DNA of 64,000 nucleotides, from assembly GCF_020194955.2 (NCBI RefSeq), contig NZ_JAFCIY020000028.1, forward strand, positions 1 to 64,000, written 5' to 3'. Below, piece after piece: positions 60,287-64,000 of the stretch. The DNA is from Desulfuromonas sp. CSMB_57 (GTDB taxonomy: Bacteria > Desulfobacterota > Desulfuromonadia > Desulfuromonadales > Syntrophotaleaceae). Each line of letters starts with the position of its first letter. The stretch's first letter is position 1. The translations under genes and the position numbers were made by a program. The notes below the pieces were generated by a model. The model was not told where the DNA came from. It made no database searches and saw nothing but the letters and a program-made list of their open reading frames with translations.

Positions 60287-61464
60287 TTTGGCAGCGCGTC
60301 ATCCTTATCGTGCTGGATGGTGTCGGTGTGGGCGCCCAGCCGGATGCGGCCGCCTACGGCGATGCCGATGCCAACACCCTGCTGCACGTTGCCGAGCGCT
60401 GCGGCGGGCTGCGCCTGCCGACCCTGGAGCGCCTCGGCCTGGGAAACATCTGCCCGATACCCGGCGTGGCACCGGTGGCTCTTCCAGAGGCGGCCCGGGG
60501 TCGAATGCTGGAGGTATCCGCCGGCAAGGATACCACCACCGGACACTGGGAGTTGGCCGGCCTGATACAGGACCATCCCTTCGCCACCTTTCCCCAAGGC
60601 TTCCCCGACCACATCATCGCCGACTTTGAAAAACAGGCCGAGGTCCGGGTGATGGGCAATATTGCCGCCAGCGGCACCGAGATCCTGCGGCAGCTGGGGG
60701 ATGAACATCGCCGCAGCGGCCGGCCCATCGTCTATACCAGTGTCGATTCCGTGTTCCAGATCGCCGCCCATGAGGACGTGATGGAGGTGGAGCGGCTTTA
60801 CGAGCTTTGCCGCATCGCCCGGCGCCTGTTGGACCCGTGGCGTATCGGGCGGGTGATTGCCCGGCCCTTTACCGGCGATGGCCCGGACAATTATGTGCGC
60901 ACCCCGCGCCGCCGTGATTTTGCCATGCCGCCGGGTGCTCCGACACTCCTGGATCGTCTCAAGGAGTCCGGCCGGAGTGTCTATGGTGTCGGCAAGATTC
61001 ACGATATCTTTGCCGGCCAGGGTCTGACCGGTTGGGTGAAAACCGCGCATAACCGCGAAGGCATGCAACGAACCCTGGAGGCGCTGGAACAGATTCCCGA
61101 TGGGTTGATTTTCACCAACCTGGTGGATTTCGACATGCTCTATGGGCATCGTCTCGATGCGGGCGGGTTCGGACGGGCACTGGAGGAGTTCGATGTCTGG
61201 CTGGCAGGTTTTCTGACTGCGATGCAGCCGGCCGACCTGTTGCTGATTACCGCCGACCACGGTTGCGATCCCACCACTCCCGGTACCGATCACAGCCGGG
61301 AAATTGTGCCCTTGCTGGCTTGGGGGGAAGGCCTTGCACCGGGCGTGGACCTGGGGATAAGGGAAAGTTTTGCCGATGTGGCGGCCACCCTGGCGGAACT
61401 GTTCCGGGTGGCACAGCCTTGCGGTCGCAGCTTCCTGGAGCGGATCAGGCCGACGAGGGCCTGA
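60283..61464 (+). CDS. deoB: Phosphopentomutase
   Basis: A 393-residue alkaline-phosphatase-superfamily enzyme interconverting (deoxy)ribose 1- and 5-phosphates, feeding DeoC in nucleoside breakdown. Metal ligands lie in IVLDGVGVGAQPDA, GKDTTTGHWEL and ITADHGCDPTTPGTDHSRE. Translationally coupled to deoC. Its last 20 bases overlap the end of the opposing PilZ gene. Confidence 0.96.
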   Translation: MIWQRVILIVLDGVGVGAQPDAAAYGDADANTLLHVAERCGGLRLPTLERLGLGNICPIPGVAPVALPEAARGRMLEVSAGKDTTTGHWELAGLIQDHPFATFPQGFPDHIIADFEKQAEVRVMGNIAASGTEILRQLGDEHRRSGRPIVYTSVDSVFQIAAHEDVMEVERLYELCRIARRLLDPWRIGRVIARPFTGDGPDNYVRTPRRRDFAMPPGAPTLLDRLKESGRSVYGVGKIHDIFAGQGLTGWVKTAHNREGMQRTLEALEQIPDGLIFTNLVDFDMLYGHRLDAGGFGRALEEFDVWLAGFLTAMQPADLLLITADHGCDPTTPGTDHSREIVPLLAWGEGLAPGVDLGIRESFADVAATLAELFRVAQPCGRSFLERIRPTRA

Positions 61465-62212
61465 GGTTTTCGGAGGGGTTGGCGGCCAACAATCGCAGCA
61501 AGGGGCTTTCCGGTTCCTGGCCGCGATGGCTCAGGTCCCTGCCGCTGTCGACCAGTTCATCCAGAAAAAGATGCTCCAGATAATGTTCCAGACAGTGCCG
61601 GTGGTCCGGTTCGAGGTTGGTGAATTCGACCCCGGCACCCTGCTGGTAATTGTTTTTGGGATCGGGGGCAACGCAATACAATACCCGGCCCGACAATTCC
61701 AGTTCCTGCTGCATGCCCAGCAGGGGCAGGACGATGCTGAAGCATTCCCCTTCCTGAAAGCGGAACCCGCTTTTGATGAACACCCCCTGACTGCTCAGGC
61801 TCAACACCTCCCCCAGATGACAGCTCTCCGCACGACACAGCATGGCCGGCAATTGGATGGCCAGGCGCATGTTCTGTCTGGGATGTTGCTCGAGATGTTT
61901 TTGCACGGTGGCGAACAGGGAGAAAATATCCAGGGGTACATCCAAACGGTCATGTCCGGGAGGCGCAGGGACGGTGCTGCCTGTTTCGCCGAGCAGGATC
62001 AGGCCGGTCTGTCTCCCGAGTCGGTCGGCCAATGTGGTATCGGCCAGCCAGGCCTCATGAAGCAGAATCAGATCCGGTGCGGTTTCCTCCATCAATGTCG
62101 ACATCTTCTCCGGACGGGCCACGGGCAGTACGCGATAGCCCCAATGCTGCAGGATCATTTCCAGCATGGTGACCAGTTTTTTTCGGGGATCGCCGAGTAT
62201 TAGACGTTTCAT
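61445..62212 (-). CDS. Degenerate receiver fused to PilZ domain
   Basis: 255 residues. The N-terminal ~115 residues follow a response-regulator fold (MKRLILGDPRKKLVTMLEM ... PDLILLHEAW), but the phospho-acceptor position holds His instead of Asp and the switch lysine is lost (VPLD), so phosphorylation is unlikely. The C-terminal PilZ domain (about 117-220) has RQNMR and SLSSQG, the latter with Ser replacing the usual Asp/Asn, and GAGVEFTNL. It is probably a cyclic-di-GMP effector. It overlaps deoB by 20 bases tail-to-tail. The ribosome site is weak. Confidence 0.8.
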   Translation of the reverse strand: MKRLILGDPRKKLVTMLEMILQHWGYRVLPVARPEKMSTLMEETAPDLILLHEAWLADTTLADRLGRQTGLILLGETGSTVPAPPGHDRLDVPLDIFSLFATVQKHLEQHPRQNMRLAIQLPAMLCRAESCHLGEVLSLSSQGVFIKSGFRFQEGECFSIVLPLLGMQQELELSGRVLYCVAPDPKNNYQQGAGVEFTNLEPDHRHCLEHYLEHLFLDELVDSGRDLSHRGQEPESPLLRLLAANPSENLRPSSA

Positions 62213-62359: not shown

Positions 62360-62794
62360 TTATTTGTTTTTGGCGCGGGCCGCGCGGGCTTTGGCAAGGT
62401 TGTCGCCAAGACCGCGATCGATGGCCATCTGACGGCGGCTTTCGGAATAGGCGCGGGCTGCCAGCGGCTGGGTACGGGGGATGTCGAACTGCTTGCGGTA
62501 TTGAGCAGGGGTCATGCCATGATTGGTCTTGAGGTGGCGCGCCAGGGTTTTCATGGTTTTGCCGCAAATCATGCAGGTAACCTTGTCTTTACCAAAGGCT
62601 TTTTTGCGGGAGATGACAGGAGCTTGAGCCGCTTCTTCTTCCACCGTTTCCTCGACAACCGCCTCTCCTTTATCAATGGCGGAAAGAGCTTTGTGCAACT
62701 CGCTGAGTTCCGCAATCAGTTCTTCTTTGGTCATGGGGGTGGTGGATGCGTGCGCGGCAACGATTTCGGCAGCCATTTCAAGCAATGTGGCCAT
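62360..62794 (-). CDS. mucR: MucR/Ros family zinc-finger regulator
   Basis: A 144-residue transcriptional regulator. An N-terminal helical oligomerisation region (about 1-60) is followed by a Ros/MucR zinc finger, CMICGKTMKTLARHLKTNH (two Cys, two His), then MTPAQYRKQFDIP and a basic tail. Relatives control exopolysaccharide, motility and cell-cycle genes by binding AT-rich DNA. AAGGAGG lies about 10 bases before the ATG. The AT-rich region upstream could host its own binding sites. Confidence 0.93.
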   Translation of the reverse strand: MATLLEMAAEIVAAHASTTPMTKEELIAELSELHKALSAIDKGEAVVEETVEEEAAQAPVISRKKAFGKDKVTCMICGKTMKTLARHLKTNHGMTPAQYRKQFDIPRTQPLAARAYSESRRQMAIDRGLGDNLAKARAARAKNK

Positions 62795-62852
62795 AGGATA
62801 ATGCCTCCTTGAGTAAGAAAAGTGAGTTATTGATTGCTGAGTTACTCCATAC

Positions 62853-62880
62853 TTAATACAAGAAATGAAATTAAAATCAA
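62853..62880 (-). promoter_or_regulatory. candidate sigma-70 promoter for mucR
   Basis: On the minus strand TTGATT (62875-62880) and TATTAA (62853-62858) with a 16-base spacer, in AT-rich DNA about 60 bases before the start. Confidence 0.45.
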
Positions 62881-63173
62881 GGGAAAATTATCTTTTTTCG
62901 TTGTTTGAATAGCTCTCCGGCAATTATTTTCCGGAAGTTGCTGAATGATCGCCGAACCTCCATTTTCCGATTAGCGCCGGTACCTCGATTGCCATATTTC
63001 ATTTTACCGGCCTTGACATCGTTATCCGGTCAAACTCTATGTTGCCGTGGCTGTTTTTTTTCGTCCGATTTATTCGGCAGCCATTTACCTGTGGGCTTTG
63101 TTGTTTCTTATTTTTCTTGCAGAAATTTCCATGAAAGTATGGCAAATTTCGGAAAATCCGACGCCCAATTTTA
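62881..63173. other. AT-rich non-coding stretch between mucR and the cheW promoter
   Basis: No convincing gene. A good -35 element TTGACA at 63013-63018 has only a weak partner (TCTATG, 17-base spacing). The lower GC content fits a regulatory region. Confidence 0.5.
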
Positions 63174-63201
63174 TTGACATCTCGCCGGGATTTCCTAAGA
63201 T
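63174..63201 (+). promoter_or_regulatory. sigma-70 promoter of the riboswitch-cheW transcript
   Basis: Consensus TTGACA (63174-63179), a 16-base spacer and TAAGAT (63196-63201). The predicted start near 63208 lies about 45 bases before the aptamer. Confidence 0.7.
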
Positions 63202-63251
63202 AGGCCCTGGTTTTTCTCACAGCCTCAGAATGGGGCCTGCCAATAATCCGT

Positions 63252-63320
63252 CAAAGGCAAAACCGGGGTAACCCGGTGACGCAAAGCCACGGGTCCTGCA
63301 TCGGGACAGCCGGGTTGCCA
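63252..63320 (+). ncRNA. GEMM-I cyclic dinucleotide riboswitch aptamer
   Basis: All hallmarks of the GEMM-I (c-di-GMP-I) class are visible. Closing stem P1 has GGCAA (63256-63260) pairing with TTGCC (63315-63319). Stem P2 is a 6-bp hairpin (62-67 with 72-77 of 63200) capped by the GNRA loop GTAA. The invariant GACGCAAAGCC joins P2 to P3 (63278-63288), and P3 contains GTCC/GGAC arms. It senses c-di-GMP or, in Geobacter-type GEMM-Ib variants, 3',3'-cGAMP; ligand choice depends on one junction nucleotide. It sits between a promoter and a terminator in front of cheW. Confidence 0.93.
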
Positions 63321-63360
63321 AAATATGAAACCACAGCGCAACCATCTTCTCGCCATGGCC

Positions 63361-63405
63361 GGCACCCGTTATCCGTGAGGAAAACAGGGTGCCTTTTTAT
63401 TTTTT
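63361..63405 (+). terminator. Riboswitch expression-platform terminator
   Basis: A 7-bp stem GGCACCC (63361-63367) with GGGTGCC (63387-63393) followed by TTTTTATTTTTT, 41 bases after the aptamer and 96 bases before the cheW start. GGTTGC in the aptamer (63313-63318) can also pair with GCAACC (63338-63343), a possible switching helix. Confidence 0.8.
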
Positions 63406-63501
63406 CGGCACACTGAATGCAGCAACTGTATCTCCGGGTGCCAGGATCCCTGGAGTCTTAACCGTAAAGCGCCCTTCAATGATGCAAAAGGAGACTTGCT
63501 G

Positions 63502-63978
63502 ATGAGCGAGCAATTGATGACCAAAGTCGTTGCCATCGAAACGGAAAATGAAGATACCCAAAAGGACAAGTACCTGACATTTTCCGTGGCTCAGGAGGAT
63601 TACGGTATCGAAATCCGCCATGTCATCGAAATTATCGGCATTCAGAAAATCACCAAGGTTCCCGATTTGCCTAATTATATCAAGGGGGTTATCAACCTTC
63701 GCGGGAAGATTATCCCGGTCATGGAGATCCGGGCCCGATTCGGCCTGCCGGCCCGGGAGTACGACGAACGCACCTGCGTCATCGTCGTGGACGTCGAGGG
63801 CCGAACCATGGGGGTGGTGGTCGATCATGTCAATGAGGTGGTAAATATCCCGCCCGAGGATGTGGAACCGGCACCGGCCGCGACCAGTCAAAAATCCGGC
63901 CGTTTCGTTTGTGGAATTGGCAAGATTCGCAATGATGTCAAAATCCTGCTGGACCTGCAGGCCATTGTTGTCCAGTAG
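63502..63978 (+). CDS. cheW: Chemotaxis adaptor protein CheW
   Basis: 158 residues. The CheW fold has YLTFSVAQEDYGIEIRHV, the conserved VINLRGKIIPVMEIRARF and a C-terminal CGIGKIRNDVKILLDLQ. It couples chemoreceptors to the kinase CheA. AAGGAG lies 8 bases before the ATG at 63502. The gene is downstream of the cyclic dinucleotide riboswitch and terminator, so its level should vary with the second messenger. No other chemotaxis gene is in view before the window ends. Confidence 0.94.
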   Translation: MSEQLMTKVVAIETENEDTQKDKYLTFSVAQEDYGIEIRHVIEIIGIQKITKVPDLPNYIKGVINLRGKIIPVMEIRARFGLPAREYDERTCVIVVDVEGRTMGVVVDHVNEVVNIPPEDVEPAPAATSQKSGRFVCGIGKIRNDVKILLDLQAIVVQ

Positions 63979-64000
63979 CCGGGGAATCCATCGTCACAGT

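Follow-up and report, generated by a model that had tools for sequence, protein, structure and literature searches.

The cheW leader and its genes

At the 3' end of the window, as we call the whole 64-kb stretch of DNA that was analysed, a putative promoter, a GEMM-I aptamer, an intrinsic terminator and cheW follow one another on the same strand (Table 1). The cheW product matches Pfam PF01584 with an E-value of 2e-39, which bears out an earlier note on this DNA that had called cheW at the end of the stretch, and its likely start, as read from the sequence, is the ATG at 63502 that follows a GGAG at 63490-63493. A gap of 38 bases separates the cheW stop from a gene for a methyl-accepting chemotaxis protein (MCP) with a 4-helix-bundle/TarH sensor, a HAMP domain and an MCP signalling domain. 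Past this gene, the next long ORF taken for a gene is on the opposite strand. The controlled unit is most simply a two-gene cheW-mcp operon, the two genes presumably being co-transcribed. The earlier description of control over a chemotaxis adaptor holds in that cheW belongs to the unit, although cheW by itself is less simply the whole of it. Just upstream of the riboswitch, on the opposite strand, are a Ros/MucR regulator gene (62360-62794) and a PilZ-domain gene (61445-62212), the latter another possible c-di-GMP effector as a neighbour.

The two promoter hexamers together have 10 of the 12 consensus letters. The hexamer pair that had been described as a consensus promoter is thus present, but the pattern is no rarer than chance, since two promoter-type matches were found in 62800-64000 on both strands against a mean of 1.4 in shuffles. 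It is the position of the pair that leads us to call it a putative promoter, and transcription would then start at about 63208.

Table 1. Features of the cheW leader, its downstream genes and the Hypr-type gene of the same genome
Feature	Position	Strand	Basis or remark
Putative sigma-70 promoter (TTGACA, 16 nt, TAAGAT)	63174-63201	+	pattern match
Candidate antiterminator, 5' leader strand	63210-63242	+	pairs 63210-63220/63375-63385 and 63229-63242/63356-63370
GEMM-I (c-di-GMP-I) aptamer	63247-63323	+	cmscan, covariance models
GGTTGC, 5' arm of the earlier note's alternative helix	63313-63318	+	folds, shuffles
GCAACC, 3' arm of the earlier note's alternative helix	63338-63343	+	folds, shuffles
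Candidate antiterminator, 3' strand; overlaps terminator 5' arm and loop	63356-63385	+	shuffles, folds
Intrinsic terminator	63361-63405	+	stem 63361-63393, U tract 63394-63405
cheW, 158 aa	63502-63978	+	PF01584
MCP gene	contig C1 64017-65828		beyond the 64-kb window, 3' of cheW
Hypr-type gene, Rec-GGDEF	L215 1453-2835; genome C18 197528-198907	-	GHLAGS and GGDEF

The aptamer

When the whole window was compared with Rfam 15 by cmscan, the aptamer was the sole RNA match over its gathering score, under the c-di-GMP-I-GGC family RF03167 (69.8 bits, gathering 59, E 1.8e-14). The GEMM-I model that the earlier note had proposed running, RF01051, gives the same aptamer 72.5 bits against a gathering score of 35, the bits of the two models not being strictly comparable, so that the claim of a full GEMM-I aptamer is upheld by both. 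The choice of RF03167 by cmscan was apparently made by E-value, which in the genome searches was 2.1e-16 for RF03167 and 3.2e-14 for RF01051. Our own covariance model, made from 20 family aptamers with that of the window among them, scores the window aptamer at 86.5 bits. The aptamer structure covaries in this set of 20. Nine pairs show double changes, a figure reached in 3 of 500 shuffles, and no shuffle out of 500 attained the covariation score of 0.353; the count of additional pair types is unremarkable (92/500 shuffles).

The aptamer has the P1-P2-P3 fold with all P2 and P3 pairs standard and GUAA at 63268-63271 as its GNRA tetraloop. P1 is weak, with a mismatch of C63249 and A63320 where 17 of the 20 aligned aptamers have C-G, and the affinity of the window aptamer may therefore be reduced. 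Vc2 and Cd1 serve as types of the c-di-GMP-I (GEMM-I) riboswitch (RF01051), and in Vc2 numbering G20, A47 and C92 form the c-di-GMP pocket. The corresponding letters in the window are G63256, just before the first P2 pair, A63283, right after it, and C63318, between P3 and P1; the G21-C46 pair is also present. The window thus shares with c-di-GMP-I its three-helix aptamer, GNRA tetraloop and pocket letters, and differs in its weak P1 and in standing before a cheW-mcp pair.

The terminator and the candidate switch helices

The terminator consists of a stem (63361-63367/63387-63393) with an inner hairpin, followed by T63394-63398, A63399 and T63400-63405. With a predicted energy of -19.8 kcal/mol for the stem alone and -21.2 kcal/mol for 63355-63405, it agrees with the earlier call of a strong intrinsic terminator between aptamer and cheW. 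It was absent from the listing of a pattern scan in which the loop limit was 8.

The 5' leader of the transcript can form a helix of 24 pairs (-33.9 kcal/mol) around the aptamer. It starts two bases past the inferred start site and takes up the 5' arm and loop of the terminator. In folding, this helix is incompatible with the terminator and compatible with the aptamer. It was matched by 1 of 2000 shuffles of its first strand and by none of 2000 of its second, the true chance being somewhat higher since the helix had been noticed in folds before the shuffle test. We regard it as a candidate antiterminator, supplied by the 5' leader and not, as in c-di-GMP-I (RF01051), by the aptamer 3' strand. 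A transcription-terminating riboswitch should have an intrinsic terminator ahead of the ORF and a structure that excludes it, and the leader appears to have both, the second as a prediction. Leader pairing was also put to a narrower test on 53 family leaders, with the outer helix omitted and the 60 bases upstream of each aptamer taken as the leader; the window was equalled by 20 of 200 shuffles, and only three of the 52 others stood at five or fewer (0, 4 and 5 of 200). This test speaks against leader-terminator pairing as a family-wide design. In the family set, the window's genome is the sole member of its genus.

The alternative GGTTGC/GCAACC helix described earlier is predicted to form with a probability of 0.54-0.85 in ligand-free folds, opening the base of P3. 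It is therefore present, but not beyond chance, as 927/2000 shuffles of the first strand and 241/2000 of the second pair as well, and GGUUGC/GCAACC was set aside as the main switch helix.

Other GEMM-I aptamers and a Hypr-type enzyme in the genome

Five GEMM-I aptamers are present in the genome to which the window belongs (completeness 100, contamination 1.52), the same five whether RF03167 or RF01051 is used. The genes behind them, cheW-mcp, a dCache MCP gene, two genes for Calx-beta proteins and one for a PAS-GGDEF-EAL protein, form a coherent set concerned with motility, surface and signal. The three aptamers before cheW-mcp and the two Calx-beta genes have G20, and the two before the dCache MCP and PAS-GGDEF-EAL genes, C93 51005-51081 (-) and C57 188069-188146 (-), have A20 and are predicted to be cGAMP sensors. 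Both riboswitch-linked MCPs (L038 2017-3828 and that behind C93 51005-51081) share a C-terminal tail, IALDD..FG.Y, perhaps a tether for adaptation enzymes.

There are 31 GGDEF matches in this genome, 30 of them with their loci scanned, and 28 of the 30 show the motif. Among these 28 readable matches, one gene only combines Ser for Asp (GHLAGS) with GGDEF (Table 1). This Asp-to-Ser change is described as the Hypr signature of GacA (PMC6456294). The Hypr-type protein has one strong match in each of the 14 family genomes, all with Ser. It is likely that the gene, which adjoins an ORF resembling hisS by eye, encodes the GacA counterpart, and both c-di-GMP and cGAMP are probably made in this organism. 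With a Hypr enzyme and two A20 aptamers in the genome, the choice between c-di-GMP and cGAMP is a real one for the window aptamer.

GEMM-I aptamers and cheW in the family and the order

Matches to RF03167 were found at 74 places in all 14 family genomes. As read by script, position 20 is G in 38 and A in 21 aptamers of the G21-C46 class, although one of these 21 (k=54) has G46 and by eye belongs to the other pairing class, for which the script counted 10 with G20 and three with A20; two low-scoring aptamers have T. In a second GEMM-I class with G46 (L014, L016, L026, L031, L155, L156, L176), a stretch able to form 7-18 pairs with the aptamer 3' strand lies at most 30 bases downstream and continues as a T tract, a layout like that of the ON switch pilM.

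Downstream genes were judged from ORFs of at least 60 aa starting within 700 bases downstream of the aptamer; at two of the 74 places the DNA covered contains none. A match to the window CheW lies downstream at five places, in one of them within a gene that a run of N breaks up, and a match to the signalling part of the window MCP at five further places. Approached from the other side, the 14 genomes contain 37 cheW matches, of which four (the window, G004, G007 and G008) have an RF03167 match about 180-250 bases upstream; the fifth cheW-linked place, in G005, came to light in the search that set out from the riboswitches. No GEMM-I was found upstream of the remaining 33, of which 29 were checked both by coordinates and with our own model and four by coordinates only. 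Among 82 loci, model R2 picked out the same five cheW-linked aptamers alone at an E-value limit of 0.1; the four relatives had been put among these loci in the knowledge that they have one, and several of the 28 titled contigs are probably duplicates.

By stricter filters and among the matches listed, GEMM-I occurs in at least 120 of the 136 genomes of the order. The stretches upstream of 60 further cheW matches of the order held no credible GEMM-I, our own model giving only two 14-bit matches (E about 0.03); this survey covered the matches listed less 32 lower-ranked rows outside the family. Most of the cheW relatives covered lack a riboswitch, which counts against the reading of the leader as a switch for cheW. 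A regular-expression scan that picked the window's own locus (L072) also picked seven others (L053, L064, L077, L080, L090, L093 and L135), which were rejected since cmscan gave no GEMM-I match over gathering in any of them. A wide linkage of GEMM-I and cheW was accordingly set aside for the part of the order that was covered.

The cheW-leader aptamers of the four relatives (L152, L153, L154 and L178, from one related genus) are alike, with A20 in three and G20 in one, which implies that the specificity letter changed within this set. A tree of 33 CheW proteins groups the three readable CheWs of these relatives in a single clade (100/100), away from that of the window. Forcing the CheWs of the three relatives and of the window together was rejected (p-AU 0.0051), so that the window's CheW stands apart. 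The latter sits on a long branch and its placement is unsure; a clade of the window's CheW with the nearest CheW rows (L073-L076), in which a model search found no riboswitch, is absent from the best tree but not rejected (p-AU 0.159). Judging from the tree, the window and the relatives have different cheW paralogues behind their riboswitches. The linkage therefore probably has more than one origin, with at least two separate placements of GEMM-I upstream of cheW.

The ligand and the direction of the switch

The earlier note had left the ligand as c-di-GMP or cGAMP. The G20/A47/C92 pocket, with G and not A at position 20, narrows this to c-di-GMP, and we read the window aptamer as an ordinary c-di-GMP sensor whose binding is predicted from the pocket letters. 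A response to cGAMP instead of c-di-GMP would find support in the surroundings of the aptamer, since the genome has a gene for a Hypr-type Rec-GGDEF protein, with a match bearing that Ser in each family genome, and since A20 is found in two of its five aptamers and in three of the four related cheW leaders. The cGAMP riboswitches (GEMM-Ib, Geobacter pilM/Gm0970) also share the GEMM-I fold. The aptamer itself, however, has G63256 beside its G21-C46 pair, and it is an A at position 20 that is linked to cGAMP preference (PMC9481103), although the position is also termed a selectivity factor and not a hard filter (PMC9262584). Unlike pilM/Gm0970, the window's terminator makes no use of the aptamer 3' strand. 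On position 20, cGAMP was dropped as an improbable ligand. It is highly improbable that the aptamer truly belongs to the c-di-GMP-I-GGC variants and responds to a different ligand. The score over gathering, the retention of RF03167 by cmscan and its better E-value would favour such a variant, but the conserved G that RF03167 has after the first P2 pair (model position 37, equivalent to position 47) is A63283 in the window, where the match line is blank, and in bits it is RF01051 that scores higher. Of the 74 family aptamers, 72 have A at position 47 (one is unread, and the one G is a misread by eye). The class was rejected on this letter; GGC in the family name presumably stands for letters 20/47/92.

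The order of aptamer, terminator and cheW had been taken to imply transcription-level control, and this anatomy gives good support to the view that a GEMM-I riboswitch controls the chemotaxis adaptor in that way. We hold with good confidence that a c-di-GMP class I (GEMM-I) riboswitch occupies the leader of the cheW-mcp operon. In the mechanism that we infer, its start site, co-transcription, ligand binding and control of termination included, RNA polymerase would start near 63208 and transcribe the aptamer and then the terminator. c-di-GMP, held by the three pocket letters, would set whether the terminator forms before the polymerase clears the U tract, and this outcome would set the amount of CheW and of its partner chemoreceptor that is made. 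Without ligand, UGCC at 63238-63241 would be tied to the pocket strand GGCA at 63256-63259, a pairing with predicted probabilities of 0.84-0.89 in ligand-free transcripts ending at 63345-63362, 0.69 at 63325 and 0.26 at 63300. Ligand would release the UGCC strand, which could then take part in the antiterminator around the aptamer, and a 5'-strand antiterminator would for this reason favour an ON switch. We lean slightly to ON, giving it about an even chance, and see OFF as a credible though less probable direction. The earlier note had held that the direction is not visible from the sequence, and equilibrium folding, too, does not separate ON from OFF. Sequestration of the terminator arm is equal with and without the aptamer (0.86, ensemble folding), and equilibrium energies favour the terminator over the antiterminator by 3.2 kcal/mol without the aptamer and by 3.8 with it formed. 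This small predicted gain of 0.6 kcal/mol over the leader antiterminator when the aptamer is held would point, if anything, slightly towards OFF.

An OFF switch of the Cd1 kind, which we consider possible without thinking it probable, would have the ligand-free aptamer 3' strand CGGGUUGCC (63311-63319) pair with the terminator 5' arm GGCACCCG (63361-63368), and c-di-GMP would lock 63311-63319 in the aptamer so that the terminator forms. That pairing exists (-14.6 kcal/mol), but it is equalled by 548/2000 shuffles and was not seen in minimum-energy folds; it was set aside on the shuffles as the main antiterminator and remains as a rival. Among 39 related aptamers whose P1 3' strand ends in NCCGAAG, 22 meet CTTCGGN within 110 nt, and in 16 of these 22 the two N pair (G-U allowed), which would favour OFF. 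The window, however, lacks this pair, and CTTCGG is also common as a terminator loop. The layout speaks for OFF in another way. Cd1 is an OFF switch and pilM an ON switch with a terminator that uses an aptamer strand (PMC9262584); as in Cd1, and unlike pilM, the window's terminator lies downstream of the aptamer without overlap and both can form together, so that the arrangement resembles Cd1 more closely than pilM.

Significance

The kind of riboswitch is already known, and the one described here adds to it a good, if rather ordinary, new case. The original GEMM papers reportedly named motility among the targets. A literature search found, by the titles and abstract starts of the papers listed, no report of a GEMM-I or c-di-GMP riboswitch paired with cheW or a chemotaxis protein, and the available part of a 2008 paper on Geobacter chemotaxis genes contains neither "riboswitch" nor "GEMM" (PMC2577667). 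The case also serves as a caution that the GGC label of cmscan can land on aptamers with an ordinary c-di-GMP pocket.

On the preferred reading of a c-di-GMP sensor with a leader antiterminator, a wider proposal may be made, which as a whole we think rather unlikely. The transcript's own 5' end would be an antiterminator that wraps the aptamer with its 24 pairs, and c-di-GMP would free or gather this strand to turn cheW-mcp ON; with the dCache MCP behind an A20 aptamer and a Hypr cyclase in the genome, c-di-GMP and cGAMP would each set different chemotaxis proteins. Three G20 and two A20 aptamers beside a Hypr gene offer a clean test of messenger specificity in one genome. If a second messenger controls how much chemotaxis coupling protein is made, the decision to attach or swim would be tied to the make-up of the receptor array at the level of RNA.
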